From assembly GCA_014237145.1 (NCBI GenBank), contig JAAXOC010000065.1:62001-126000 (forward strand): DNA of 64,000 bases, written 5' to 3'. The translations under genes were made by a program, and so were the position numbers. Positions 19,179 to 52,284 of the stretch are shown here, piece after piece. How positions within the stretch are numbered: position 1 is the first letter of the stretch; the number at the start of each line of letters is the position of its first letter. Below the pieces are notes generated by a model. It searched no databases, was not told where the DNA came from, and saw nothing but the letters and a program-made list of their open reading frames with translations. This stretch comes from ANME-2 cluster archaeon. GTDB taxonomy: Archaea; Halobacteriota; Methanosarcinia; Methanosarcinales; Methanocomedenaceae.

Positions 19179-19243
19179 TTTAGTGAGGTTAAACGATATA
19201 TGGTTTATGTTTCAATCCTTGTTTTGGTGGATGTCGGTTTGCA

Positions 19244-19712
19244 ATGAGAGACTTTTTATTATTTAGCATGAAAGTACCCTTGGGTTCTTTCATCTTTTTG
19301 TGCATGTTATTCGAAGAATTTCATGTAAGTTTTCTAGAGAAGATTGAGGATCAATACGAAACAGCAGAAAAAATAACGTTGGTGATGGACAATCTGAACA
19401 CACACGTTCCAGGATCGCTCTATGAGACGTTTCAGTCGGATAAGGCAAAGGCAATATTGGACTGATTCGAGTTTGTATACACTCCAAAGCATGGAAGTTG
19501 GTTGAATATGGCTGAGATTGAGTTGAACGTGCTCAATGGGCAGTGTTTAAACAGAAGAATCGATGACATTAAGGTTGTCGGGAAAGAGGTACTGGCATGG
19601 CAAAAATACAGAAATAATAAAAATGCGAAAGTTAATTGGCAATTTACAACTGAGGATGCAAGGATTAAGTTATCTAGACTTTATCCGACACTTGATGATT
19701 GACTTGACACTA
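19244..19712 (+). pseudogene. IS630 family transposase remnant with right-end TIR
   Basis: The frame covers the C-terminal DDE half of an IS630 transposase: ITLVMDNLNTHVPGSLYETF, then an in-frame TGA at 19463-19465, then FEFVYTPKHGSWLNMAEIEL, VLNGQCLNRRI and a basic end. The second Asp (MDNLNTH) and the catalytic Glu (NMAEIE) are present. The N-terminal HTH half and the left end are missing. The right end TTGACTTGACACTA (19699-19712) overlaps the gene's stop and matches the MITE at 15815-15922. The gene is inactive here, but shows that this IS family has been in the genome. Confidence 0.85.
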
Positions 19713-22728: not shown

Positions 22729-24312
22729 ATGGGAATGGAGAAAAGTATAACTTTTACGCTGCTTGAAGACCAGGATCACCAAGACCTGATCCGTACAATA
22801 TCAGAATCATACCAGTTTGCTCATGACCCGCCCTCCACTGTGCAAGAGAGCTATTTTGATTCCTTTGACTGGCTCCTCTATAACGGGAATCTCGTTCTCT
22901 TGAAGCAGGATGGTACATTTTGCTTAAAGGACCTGGAATCCTCTAAAGTGATTGCAGAGTGCCCATGGGAGCATAAGGACGTAGCACAGTTCTGGTGGGA
23001 CTTTCCTGATTGCGAGATAGCGGCGTTGCTTAAGACGTGCTTGGATGTCAGGGCACTTCTGCCGTTTTTAGAAATTGAGAAGAGGAGCGAAAAACTCCAT
23101 ATCCTGAACAAAGATGAAAAAACGGTACTGTGGGTCTATCTCGACGAGATCAATAAAAGCACAGACGTCCCCATTCAGGAAACCATCCGTACTATCACGC
23201 TTGCGCCAGTCCGTGGCTACTGGAAGGAGTTTCGTGATTTTCATCAGTTTATTGAGGGGATTAAAGTAGCTGAGCCCTGTGAGAATTTATTTAACATGAT
23301 GCTCAAGCTGACCCAAAGAAAACCAGGGGATTACAGCTCTAAAATGAAGGTCGCCCTCACAAGAGACATGAACGGGAGTGTGGCTACAAGGAAGATCCTC
23401 CTCTACCTGCTAAACATCATGACACAGAACGAGGAAGGGGTTATCAGTGATATGGACACCGAGTTTCTCCATGATTTCCGGGTCTCCGGGCGCAGGACGC
23501 GCTCTGCCATAAGCCAGATAAAAGACGTGTTCCCTCTGGAAAAACTTGATCGGTTCAAACAGGATTTCAGGGAGCTTGGCCAGTCTTCAAACAAACTAAG
23601 AGACCTGGATGTGTACCTGCACACGAAGGAGGAGTACCTCGCCATGCTACCCGAAGATCTCAGACCGGGACTCAACCCTTTTTTTATATATCTGGAAAAA
23701 CAGCGGGAAAAAGAGCTAAAAGGATTTACTGAAGTGCTCTGCTCAGGTTTTTACAGGCAGCTTGTCACCGATTGGGAAGCATTCCTCGTTTATAATGAGG
23801 ATTACGAAAGGATGCCTGCAAACGCGGAAAAACCTGTGATAACACTTGCAAGAGAGTTCATCAGGAGGCGGTACACAAAGATCATGAAGGACGGGGAAAA
23901 GATAGACAATAATTCACCTGACGAAAAACTTCATAACCTGCGGATACAGTGCAAGAAACTGCGTTATCTCATGGAGTTCTTCGCATCCCTGTTCCCCTCT
24001 GATGAGATTGCACTTCTGACAAAACAACTGAAGCGATTCCAGGACAACTTAGGAGAGTTCAACGACCTCTCGATGCAGCAGGATACATTAAAAGAGTACC
24101 TTGATACGATCGACCCCAAATCAGATCAGAATATGCTCATTGCGGCTGCCATCGGTGGACTGATCATGAACCTGAATACAAGACAGCAGCATGTACGGGC
24201 TGAGTTTTCAGATCAGTTCAGGCATTTTGGCCAAAAGAAGAACAGTTTGCTCTTTAAACAACTCTTCAAAGATGGTGACAGGACGACCGCAAAAAAGGAA
24301 GTGATATCATGA
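22729..24312 (+). CDS. CHAD domain protein with CYTH-like N-terminal half
   Basis: The 527-residue protein has a degenerate CYTH-like N-terminal half (about 1-190; SITFTLLEDQDHQDLIRTI, LEIEKRSEKLHILN, VLWVYLDEI). A CHAD domain follows (about 205-510), with the conserved basic helices FLHDFRVSGRRTRSAI and KLHNLRIQCKKLRYLMEFF, and LGEFNDLSMQQDTL near the end. CHAD domains bind polyphosphate through these His/Arg/Lys surfaces and localise to granules. It follows PPK1 closely and overlaps ParA by 4 bases (ATGA). The CYTH-like half lacks the clear E-x-E-x-K start, so catalysis by it is doubtful. Confidence 0.88.
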   Translation: MGMEKSITFTLLEDQDHQDLIRTISESYQFAHDPPSTVQESYFDSFDWLLYNGNLVLLKQDGTFCLKDLESSKVIAECPWEHKDVAQFWWDFPDCEIAALLKTCLDVRALLPFLEIEKRSEKLHILNKDEKTVLWVYLDEINKSTDVPIQETIRTITLAPVRGYWKEFRDFHQFIEGIKVAEPCENLFNMMLKLTQRKPGDYSSKMKVALTRDMNGSVATRKILLYLLNIMTQNEEGVISDMDTEFLHDFRVSGRRTRSAISQIKDVFPLEKLDRFKQDFRELGQSSNKLRDLDVYLHTKEEYLAMLPEDLRPGLNPFFIYLEKQREKELKGFTEVLCSGFYRQLVTDWEAFLVYNEDYERMPANAEKPVITLAREFIRRRYTKIMKDGEKIDNNSPDEKLHNLRIQCKKLRYLMEFFASLFPSDEIALLTKQLKRFQDNLGEFNDLSMQQDTLKEYLDTIDPKSDQNMLIAAAIGGLIMNLNTRQQHVRAEFSDQFRHFGQKKNSLLFKQLFKDGDRTTAKKEVIS

Positions 24313-25055
24313 CGAATTTGGCATTCTACAGTATAAAAGGTGGTGTCGGGAAAACGGCCGCAGCGGTTAACCTTGCATACCTTTCGTCCAGTGACGGGTA
24401 CAAGACATTGCTCTGCGACCTGGACCCGCAAGGTTCGGCGTCATACTACTTCAGGGTGCGAACGCCCAAAAAGTTCAATTCCGAAAAACTGTTAGAAGGC
24501 GGTAAAAAGGTTGATAGAACCATTCGCGGAAGTGATTACGCAAATCTGGATATCCTCCCTGCTGATTTTTCATACCGGTTGCTCGATATCGCACTCAGCA
24601 ACAGGAAACGCTCTATAAAATGGCTCAAAGAGGTGTTAACACCATTCGAAGATGAATACGATAATATATTCCTGGACTGTCCGCCAAACATCACCCTGCT
24701 CTCTGAGAACGTCTTTTTTGCCGCAGACTATATCATCCTCCCGTTTGTCCCAACCACCCTTTCCAGGCTCACTTATGATAATCTGCTGAAATTCTTCAAT
24801 AAATCCAAACTCGACCAATCCGGGATCGTCGCGTTCTTCTCAATGGTGGAACAACAGAAAACGATACATAAGGAGATCATCAGGGAGATGGAAGTAGACA
24901 AGCATTTCCTGAAAAGCCAGGTTCCATATGCCGCTGACATCGAGAAGATGGGAATTCACCGCCAGCCGGTTGCATGCACGCAAGCCCGCTCAAAAGCTGC
25001 AGCATCTTTTGTGGAACTCTGGAATGAGCTGAAAGAGATTATCAGCAGGGAATAA
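24309..25055 (+). CDS. ParA/MinD family ATPase in the polyphosphate operon
   Basis: The 248-residue protein has the deviant Walker A KGGVGKTAAAVNLAYL near residue 11, Walker A' CDLDPQGSASYYF, Walker B IFLDCPPNITLLS, and a late SRLTYDNLLKFFNKS region, all typical of ParA. ParA-type ATPases use nucleoid DNA as a track to position plasmids, chromosomes or protein compartments. No ParB, parS-like repeats or plasmid genes are nearby. It overlaps the CHAD gene by ATGA and sits in a polyphosphate operon, so spacing of polyphosphate granules is the best-supported guess. That role is an inference. Confidence 0.93.
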   Translation: MTNLAFYSIKGGVGKTAAAVNLAYLSSSDGYKTLLCDLDPQGSASYYFRVRTPKKFNSEKLLEGGKKVDRTIRGSDYANLDILPADFSYRLLDIALSNRKRSIKWLKEVLTPFEDEYDNIFLDCPPNITLLSENVFFAADYIILPFVPTTLSRLTYDNLLKFFNKSKLDQSGIVAFFSMVEQQKTIHKEIIREMEVDKHFLKSQVPYAADIEKMGIHRQPVACTQARSKAAASFVELWNELKEIISRE

Positions 25056-28479: not shown

Positions 28480-29955
28480 TTATTTAGCAGTAGCCTTTTT
28501 TATTGTTGTTTTTTTCTTAGCTGCTGTCTTTTTTGGCTTTGTTTTCGTGTCAGTAGCAGTCTTTTCAGAAGTGTTTATCTCCTTGTTTGTCTTTTCCTTC
28601 TCAGCGGCAGCCGTCCTGGCCGTCGTTTTCTTTTCAGCGGCAGTCGCCCTGGTTGTCGTTTTCTTCTCAGCAGCAGTAGTTCTTGTTGTCGGTTTCTTCT
28701 CAGCAGCAGTAGTTCTTGTTGTCGGTTTCTTTTTAGCAGGAGTGGTCCTTGTTGTTGTTTTCTTCTTAGCAGGAGCAGTCCTTGTTGTCGTTTTCTTCTT
28801 AACAGGAGTGGTCCTTGTTGTCGTTTTCTTCTTAGCAGGAGCAGTCCTTGTTGTCGTTTTCTTTTTTACAGGCACGGGTTTTATAATATCGCCCAGTCTA
28901 ATGGCGGTTGTCATTCTTTTTGCCGGGATGTCATAACTAACAGCCTCTGGTGCCCCGGCCCCCATCCCGATTCCTGATCCGGTTGCAATGGTTTCTTCTA
29001 CTGCTTTACCAGGGCCCGTTTCATCTGCCTTTATCTTATCAGAAGTAGATTTCGTCTTCTTTGGTACGGTAGGCTCTGGCACCATATCCAGCAGACCACC
29101 TGTTTTGTATTCCTCTTCCATCTCATCCCTGGTAATTAACACGCCATTGGCAGCCCGCATAGCCCCGTCCACCCTGGCTTCCTCGTGGATAATGATCTTA
29201 CCGCCATTGATCTCACCCAGGATATGTGAGTCTTTATTGATATGCACATCACCCCTGGTCACAAGGTTTCCGTGTATGGTATTACCTTCACCAATGACTA
29301 TCTCATTGGTAGTCTTGATACTGCCGAACAGGGTATTATTGTTCCCCATCACAATTGAGGAAGCCCTGATATTCCCCATCATCCGGCAGCCACTGCCAAT
29401 AACAGCTTTATCAGGAACCTTAATTGATTCAAGGTCGATCTTCGAACCGCTGGGAATGATAAGTAGTTTATCTTCCTCTAGGTCATCACTTTCATCGGAA
29501 AACAGATTTTTCAGGGCATTATCAACTTCTTCGTCTTTCCCCATCCGAATTAATTCTGTCAGGTACAGGAAAATGTAAATGATCACCGGGATGGGATTCC
29601 TGACAACTATCCAGCCTCTGGCTTCATAGCCTCCGTTTATTTTTACATCCTTGCCAATATCCAGGTCTTTGCCTACGATCAGTTTTCCAACTATATTGAC
29701 AAATTCACCGATATATGCATCATTCTTGGTCCTGACATCACCATTCACCTGGGACCACATATCGATCCTTACTTCTTCGGTCCCTATGACATTCCCATTG
29801 ATCCTGACCCTTTCCCCGGCAATGACCGAATCAGCAATAATGCCAAAACCCATAACGGTATGGTTGCCTATAATGGCTCCTCCGGTAGTAACAATGGAAT
29901 GTTCTTCCATTATAGTATTATCGGGAATGGTAAACGTTTTCAACAAATCTTCCAT
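28480..29955 (-). CDS. Bactofilin-like beta-helix protein with histone-H1-like basic tail
   Basis: The 491-residue protein has a repetitive beta-helix N-terminal region, about residues 5-125 (TTGGAIIGNHTVMGFGIIAD, VRINGNVIGTEEVRID, IVGKLIVGKDLDIGKDVKIN). A hydrophobic segment VIIYIFLYLTELI follows near 126-138, then an acidic linker. A second beta-helix spans about 155-275 (VIGSGCRMMGNIRASSIVMG, VIGEGNTIHGNLVTRGDV), in the style of bactofilin-like polymer-forming proteins. The last about 130 residues are built from 12-residue units such as KKKTTTRTAPAK, ending KPKKTAAKKKTTIKKATAK. The tail is strongly basic and resembles histone H1 tails. It may bind DNA, polyphosphate or acidic surfaces. Scaffolding is inferred from the fold. 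Confidence 0.8.
   Translation of the reverse strand: MEDLLKTFTIPDNTIMEEHSIVTTGGAIIGNHTVMGFGIIADSVIAGERVRINGNVIGTEEVRIDMWSQVNGDVRTKNDAYIGEFVNIVGKLIVGKDLDIGKDVKINGGYEARGWIVVRNPIPVIIYIFLYLTELIRMGKDEEVDNALKNLFSDESDDLEEDKLLIIPSGSKIDLESIKVPDKAVIGSGCRMMGNIRASSIVMGNNNTLFGSIKTTNEIVIGEGNTIHGNLVTRGDVHINKDSHILGEINGGKIIIHEEARVDGAMRAANGVLITRDEMEEEYKTGGLLDMVPEPTVPKKTKSTSDKIKADETGPGKAVEETIATGSGIGMGAGAPEAVSYDIPAKRMTTAIRLGDIIKPVPVKKKTTTRTAPAKKKTTTRTTPVKKKTTTRTAPAKKKTTTRTTPAKKKPTTRTTAAEKKPTTRTTAAEKKTTTRATAAEKKTTARTAAAEKEKTNKEINTSEKTATDTKTKPKKTAAKKKTTIKKATAK
28630..28880 (-). repeat. 36-bp coding minisatellite for the basic tail
   Basis: About seven units of 36 bases encode the KKKTTTRT-x-PAK or EKKTTTRTTAA blocks of the bactofilin-like protein. 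The units differ at few positions, so copy number may vary between strains. All units keep the reading frame. Confidence 0.8.
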
Positions 29956-30072
29956 TTACGTTTAACTCCGGAATGATTTGTTTATTCAACATCAAGAGAA
30001 TATAAAGCGTTTTGGTTTCTTTCCTGCTGTTTACCAGAATATATACTATCTTAAAAACCAGTTATTTCGACA

Positions 30073-30338
30073 GAAGATTTATCAGAATCTTCGATTGAAG
30101 ATTTATCAGAATCTTCGATTGAAGATTTATCAGAATCTTCGATTGAAGATTTATCAGAATCTTCGATTGAAGATTTATCAGAATCTTCGATTGAAGATTT
30201 ATCATCAGAATCTTCGATTGAAGATTTATCAGAATCTTCGATTGAAGATTTATCAGAATCTTCGATTGAAGATTTATCAGAATCTTCGATTGAAGATTTA
30301 TCAAAATCTTTGATTGAAGATTTATCTGAATCAATCCG
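30073..30338. repeat. Tandem array of palindromic 24-mers
   Basis: Ten full units start at 30073, 30097, 30121, 30145, 30169, 30193 (27 bases, with an extra ATC), 30220, 30244, 30268 and 30292. A partial unit starts at 30316. The unit is GAAGATTTATCAGAATCTTCGATT. Adjacent units create AATCTTC-GATT-GAAGATT hairpins (7-bp arms). Read on the minus strand the array encodes DKSSIEDS repeats without stops, and the one length change is 3 bases. Coding and DNA-structural roles are both possible. Confidence 0.95.
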
Positions 30339-30459
30339 TGTGCAGCCAGTACACAGGAAAACCCTGCGCATGGGCATACCGGATCTTCTGCGCCGTACCC
30401 GAATACACATCGAAATCTACATCCGCTCCACATTCACATCCACAACGACGAAGAGTTCA
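30331..30459 (-). pseudogene. Unidentified protein C-terminal remnant
   Basis: One minus-strand frame reads CGCECGADVDFDVYSGTAQK then IRYAHAQGFPVYWLHTD and stops at the edge of the 24-mer array. The SGTAQKIRYAHAQGFPVYW stretch has the look of a Rossmann-like SLOG/DprA-type end (SGT..TIR.A...G.PVY). No start codon fits and the rest of the protein is missing. The family guess is weak. Confidence 0.3.
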
Positions 30460-30551
30460 GGGAGCCAAAAAATTGGGGACCAGTTTTTACTCGGGCACAG
30501 TATCCATTCTCAAATATACTACTCCGTAAGTATAATTTGGAACTGTATATG

Positions 30552-30636
30552 ACTGCCACAGAGCTCACAGAGAGCACAGAGAAAGGAGTTTGGGGCGGAA
30601 AAAGCATCTCGGTGTTCTCTGTGCTCTCTGTGGCAG
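30552..30636. repeat. Intergenic inverted repeat (CTGCCACAGAG type)
   Basis: The left arm (30552-30583: CTGCCACAGAG, a short bulge, then AGAGCACAGAGAA) pairs with TTCTCTGTGCTCTCTGTGGCAG at 30615-30636. It lies downstream of the surface-protein operon, about 110 bases beyond the last stop, and may be a terminator or a dispersed intergenic repeat. A related ACCACAGAGGACTCAGAGAA stretch occurs near 545. Confidence 0.7.
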
Positions 30637-30749
30637 AAAGTCACAAAAAACATATACGGTTTAGTATAATCCTGAACAGCTCATATTGGGATAATACATT
30701 TTCATTGATTTTTTGTGTATCTTACTCTTCTTCTTCATCATTCATTCTT

Positions 30750-48628: not shown

Positions 48629-49057
48629 TCAATCCCACTCCTCCACCAGCATCTCCCCAAGTTCCTCCAAACTCCCTGCCACCTGAAACTTCAGTGCCCC
48701 CAGTACCATAGGATTATCAACGCCGCCAAACGCACCCCGCACATCAGTCTTCAATCCTATACACTCCTTCCCCAGTGCATACCCAATCCCTATCTCAACA
48801 CATGCCCCCTCATCTGGCACCCTGCCATCCATATTAAACACCACCACATCACAATCCTTGATCTCCTGCACATCCCTTTCAAAAATAATCCCCAGAGCTT
48901 CTGACCTGCCGACCTTCTTCTCAAGCTCTGCCAGCTTGTACCCATCCCTCTGGGGAAGAAACGTGGTAAAACCAAGGTCAGACAGGAATTTATCAAGCTT
49001 TTCATTGTATTCAAGTTCTGCGTCACAAAAAAGCGGTCCTGCAATATATATCTTCAT
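48629..49057 (-). CDS. Nucleoside 2-deoxyribosyltransferase family protein
   Basis: The 142-residue protein begins KIYIAGPLFCDAELEYNEKL and has FLPQRDG, FERDVQEIKDCDVVVFNMDG and VPDEGACVEIGIGYALGKEC, the motifs of the nucleoside 2-deoxyribosyltransferase fold. The catalytic Glu should be that of DEGACVEIG. Members swap or hydrolyse bases on deoxynucleosides or their monophosphates. It follows the dNTPase-like HD gene by 15 bases, so the two probably work together on deoxynucleotides. Confidence 0.9.
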   Translation of the reverse strand: MKIYIAGPLFCDAELEYNEKLDKFLSDLGFTTFLPQRDGYKLAELEKKVGRSEALGIIFERDVQEIKDCDVVVFNMDGRVPDEGACVEIGIGYALGKECIGLKTDVRGAFGGVDNPMVLGALKFQVAGSLEELGEMLVEEWD

Positions 49058-52188: not shown

Positions 52189-52284
52189 GGGTGGGTCAAT
52201 TTTCAATGGGAAAAGTGGGTCAATTTTCAATGGGAAAAGTGGGTCAATTTTCAATGGGAAAAGTGGGTCAATTTTAGGTGGGAA
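52189..52284. repeat. IS21 end with four 24-base direct repeats
   Basis: The unit AAAAGTGGGTCAATTTTCAA-TGGG is repeated four times directly upstream of the istA start. The last unit diverges to AATTTTAGGTGGG. Multiple direct repeats at the ends are typical of IS21 elements, where they are transposase binding sites. This is the intact left end of the broken copy. Confidence 0.88.

Follow-up and report, generated by a model that had tools for sequence, protein, structure and literature searches.

The ten tandem 24-bp palindromic units that lie upstream of a bactofilin gene in this ANME-2 cluster archaeon most probably form a non-coding minisatellite of the VNTR type (we put the probability at about 0.82), which would have expanded recently and locally after the lineage split from its nearest sequenced relative. 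In that relative, the congener Methanosarcinales archaeon CSMAG_2516, the same intergenic stretch has a single full unit, bordered by the same partial edges. The array thus combines a head-to-tail unit in the range of about 10-100 bp with a copy number that varies at an orthologous site, as minisatellite and VNTR loci do. All positions below refer to the window, by which we mean the whole 64,000-nucleotide stretch of DNA that was analyzed.

Structure and genomic context of the array

TRF reported a repeat at 30066-30332 with a period of 24, 11.0 copies, a 95% match and a score of 472. Reading the same DNA unit by unit gave ten head-to-tail units spanning 30073-30338 with the edge unit included, flanked by partial units on both sides (Table 1), and so upheld the ten near-perfect palindromic 24-mers described in an earlier, sequence-only reading. 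This repetition is far above chance. Eight of the ten units are exact (starts at 30073, 30097, 30121, 30145, 30169, 30220, 30244 and 30268), one carries two mismatches (GAAGATTTATCAAAATCTTTGATT), and the sole length variant is a 27-mer in which ATCATCAG replaces ATCAG (extra TCA), in agreement with the 3-base length variation noticed earlier; all unit lengths are divisible by three. TRF also offered an alternative view as two 123-bp blocks (30081-30203 and 30204-30326) with the extra 3 bp at their seam, a layout that might go back to a single duplication, out of register, of five units plus 3 bp. Short-read assemblies can collapse or stretch perfect repeats of about 130 bp, and since the perfect part of the array has about this length in a genome assembled into 118 contigs, the assembled copy number calls for caution.

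Table 1. Coordinates of the array and its flanking features in the window
Feature	Position	Strand	Remarks
Bactofilin-domain gene adjoining the array	28480..29955	-	PF04519, E 1.4e-8
Putative TATA box (archaeal type) for the bactofilin gene, CTTTATATTCTC	29996..30007	-	From alignment; putative promoter
Open frame of DKSSIEDS repeats, judged not a gene	30051..30410	-	ORF, 119 aa
Left partial edge unit ATTTCGACA	30064..30072	.	Reads ATTTTGACA in CSMAG_2516
Ten full tandem units of GAAGATTTATCAGAATCTTCGATT	30073..30315	.	8 exact, 27-mer at 30193-30219, 2-mismatch unit at 30292-30315
Partial edge unit GAAGATTTATCTGAATCAATCCG	30316..30338	.	Common to the one-unit relative CSMAG_2516, one base different
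Decayed nucleoside 2-deoxyribosyltransferase (PF05014-type) fragment, DVYSGTAQKIRYAHAQGFPVYWLHTD followed by a stop	30331..30411	-	Stop codon 30331-30333 inside the array edge unit

Each unit contains a 7-bp inverted repeat that can be written GAAGATT-TATCAG-AATCTTC or, equivalently, AATCTTC-GATT-GAAGATT. A stem of at least 7 bp was found in 1.8-2% of shuffled units and in about 1% of the other 24-mers of the window when these were read as tandem units. The palindrome is real and only modestly unusual, notable rather than extreme. Self-complementarity at this level, reached by about 2% of shuffles, was significant in none of the other arrays tested in the same genome; this counts against the minisatellite reading, as do the unit lengths divisible by three.

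The array occurs once in its own genome. The search for further copies proposed in the earlier reading was run and returned this single locus, and the 18-bp palindrome core has no second genome site within 1 mismatch, the next best differing at 2 positions. The array was absent from 59 relatives scanned for the unit at up to 3 mismatches, and zero matches came from scanning the GTDB contig and IMG/VR collections for the exact unit or from blastn searches against plasmid and phage collections.

On one side, the array edge overlaps the stop of a decayed nucleoside-2-deoxyribosyltransferase fragment, which by alignment is a truncated remnant of such a gene, in a frame other than that of DKSSIEDS. 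It is 78.5% identical over 79 nt to an intact paralogue in its own genome (G000:C89:66665-66979); the nearest nucleoside-deoxyribosyltransferase gene on the contig (window ~48707-49051) was rejected as its source, the contig C89 paralogue being the better match. The copy of the fragment in CSMAG_2516 is less decayed and reads DVDSGTAQEIGYAHAYGLPVYWLHTD up to its stop, and intact paralogues read DVDSGTAWEIGYAHALGKPVYGLRTDFRTLGIEG and then continue.

On the other side lies the bactofilin gene, and the DNA between them (29956-30060) is probably its promoter, with a TATA-like box that alignment shows to be conserved across five species of the genus, with a single change in one. The array edge is located about 59 bp upstream of this box. 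If the predicted TATA box is used, transcription would start near 29972, which would leave the array outside the bactofilin mRNA. The bactofilin gene contains a 33-bp coding minisatellite of its own (TRF 28580-28863), which gives its C-terminal tail a K/T/R-rich composition, and the total length of its frame varies from 412 to 491 aa among congeners.

The orthologous site in congeners and the origin of the array

At the orthologous locus of CSMAG_2516 (L010/L069) the site reads ATTTTGACA GAATATTTGTCAAAATATTTGATT GAAGATTTATCAGAATCAATCCG, and its flanks align to the window both toward the bactofilin gene (96.3% over 214 bp) and away from it (88% over 156 bp). This one-unit site suggests that the array is a lineage-specific expansion of a local seed, and since the bactofilin coding DNA of the two species is only 3.3% different, the change would be recent on the scale of species divergence. 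The array is missing from congeners G001, G003 and G005 (the last being ANME-2 cluster archaeon S7142MS1), in which the promoter is retained and the DNA beyond about 30037 is unrelated.

We propose that the common ancestor of the window species and CSMAG_2516 carried a self-complementary 24-bp sequence in roughly 1.5 to 2 copies, located at the broken 3' end of the decayed deoxyribosyltransferase fragment and immediately upstream of the promoter of the bactofilin gene. In the window lineage, replication slippage or unequal recombination would then have brought it to ten units, perhaps aided by the hairpins within the unit, and the 3-bp insertion may mark the seam of a 123-bp block duplication or have arisen by a small slip. 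The direction was probably a gain in the window lineage. A loss in CSMAG_2516 would be the less likely course, since the near-identical units (8 of 10 identical) point to recent multiplication; the direction is read from one orthologous site and from unit homogeneity, CSMAG_2516 being the only one of the relatives compared in which the seed was found.

Relative to the window, both arms of the single CSMAG_2516 unit show one G-C to T-A change (GAAGATT/AATCTTC in the window versus GAATATT/AATATTT), a further point against the minisatellite reading. Selection on the palindrome could produce such a matched change, and so could hairpin-templated mutation; it is a single event. In CSMAG_2516 the pseudogene fragment (L069 ~2700-2760) bears its own small repeat of GATACG-type hexamers, absent in the window, and this pseudogene stretch seems generally prone to repeat growth.

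Alternative explanations

A regulatory array is unlikely, even though it has the best claim among the functional explanations that we weighed. On this view the 18-bp imperfect palindromes would serve the bactofilin promoter as upstream operators, and the number of copies would tune bactofilin expression. The short distance from the proximal array edge to the conserved TATA-like box is consistent with such a role, as is the palindromic nature of the single CSMAG_2516 seed (TTTTGACA-GAATATT-TGTCAAAA), but three congeners with the same promoter entirely lack the element, a 24-bp period corresponds to a non-integral number of helical turns, and the lack of any other genome site within 1 mismatch of the core argues against a regulon. 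That the expanded array works as an upstream switch of variable copy number, tuning expression of a cytoskeletal bactofilin in this uncultivated ANME-2-type archaeon, is more doubtful still; were it true, it would be an archaeal case of minisatellite-driven expression variation. It is equally doubtful that the array encodes part of a small protein with a predicted disordered DKSSIEDS repeat. The minus-strand frame does run without stops across the array, as had been noted from the sequence, both the unit length and the 3-bp indel preserve it, and the homologous frame of CSMAG_2516 is open to the same stop (RIDSDKSSIKYFDKYSVKITGF before it). Yet before it reaches the array this frame runs through the deoxyribosyltransferase fragment in the wrong register, a Pfam search of the frame gave no match, and we agree with the earlier reading in seeing no clear start signal. 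The same reading had held that homologous full-length genes with DKSSIEDS repeats would make this a mere coding repeat; none was found in relatives, where the repeat appeared as protein only in the array itself and at the one-unit site of CSMAG_2516, the other matches being weak (E above 0.1). Compared with CSMAG_2516 over an 84-nt upstream stretch, which offers few sites, the frame shows 6 nonsynonymous and 2 synonymous changes, exactly as the neighboring dead frame does, and no sign of protein-level constraint. The suggestion of a protein repeat from a broken gene was right in that a broken gene adjoins the array and wrong in that DKSSIEDS is not in its frame.

The two remaining functions that had been suggested fare worse. 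A transcript of the + strand is predicted to fold into one long rod-like hairpin (-125.4 kcal/mol, z -11.5, against z -3.3 for the minus strand), which would suit a structured non-coding RNA. Tandem copies of a self-complementary unit must give such a fold, however, so its stability is not independent evidence of an RNA, and the z-score has to be discounted since dinucleotide shuffles destroy the very tandem structure that causes the fold. With no Rfam match at the array and no conservation of the repeat region, we regard a structured RNA as highly improbable. Lowest of all we place a partition or replication site (putatively parS- or iteron-like) served by a ParA-type gene, for which the odds are close to negligible. 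The ParA/AAA_31 ATPase gene that the sequence-only reading had placed about 5 kb away is indeed there (24309-25055), but relatives contradict a tie to the array in both directions: orthologues at 93%, 92% and 82% identity (G010, G008 and G022, respectively) occur in genomes without the array unit, and CSMAG_2516 carries the seed without this ParA gene. Moreover, no partition partner gene was recognized beside the array, and the period of 24 is not phased. The ParA gene itself has a patchy distribution, being 82-93% identical in these three more distant relatives and absent from the congener CSMAG_2516, which suggests horizontal transfer.

Comparison with known repeats

We infer that the array has no selected function and regard it as an ordinary minisatellite, although there is a slight chance that it influences the promoter next to it. 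Such arrays are not rare in this genome: in the 242 kb from which we estimated their density there are about six clean arrays with about five or more copies, this one included, or roughly 1 per 40 kb (the others being 27 bp x5.4, 21 bp x4.9, 33 bp x8.6, 27 bp x4.9 and 14 bp x49 at 99% identity). The last of these, at 62333-63019 of contig C89 (L111 2333-3019), is a very long clean array of TAGTTATTAAGTGA with stops in all frames. Further features were seen in the window itself. A MITE-like inverted repeat at 30550-30645 (TGCCACAGAGCTCACAGAGAGCACAGAGAA ... TTCTCTGTGCTCTCTGTGGCA) recurs in the genome as about ten long copies, with partial matches numbering in the dozens; at 52191-52275 there are 3.5 perfect copies of GTGGGTCAATTTTCAATGGGAAAA, which may be insertion-sequence end repeats; and a lone Rfam CRISPR-DR7 match (40.4 bits) lies at 19209-19245, with no surrounding repeat array of at least 20 bp.

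Methanosarcina was the archaeal group richest in satellites in a published survey (PMC6749651). Like the prokaryotic minisatellites and VNTR loci described there, the array consists of near-identical head-to-tail 24-bp units in intergenic DNA, at one locus per sequence, and its copy number differs between close relatives (ten here versus one in CSMAG_2516), a variation seen here between two species only, with one genome per species. It departs from such loci in that its unit is more palindromic than the other arrays tested in its own genome. The tandem repeats of Borgs (PMC9879509) are likewise recent, made of perfect units of about 20 nt with partial flanking units, local in origin and rarely common to close relatives, but the array lies neither in a Borg element nor in a confirmed gene, and as far as tested its locus is chromosomal, since it adjoins a gene conserved across the order. 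REP/BIME-type repeats share the palindromic units in intergenic DNA and differ in being dispersed in many copies; the single locus rules out a REP or other dispersed palindromic element. A CRISPR was also ruled out, as the units abut directly without unique spacers.

The array carries no evidence of a new system, and it could serve as a strain marker. What the locus offers is a clean before-and-after pair from two close archaeal relatives, one with a one-unit ancestral-like site and the other with the expanded form of ten units. The pair fits the idea that minisatellites can grow out of local sequence able to form hairpins, where intergenic DNA is decaying.
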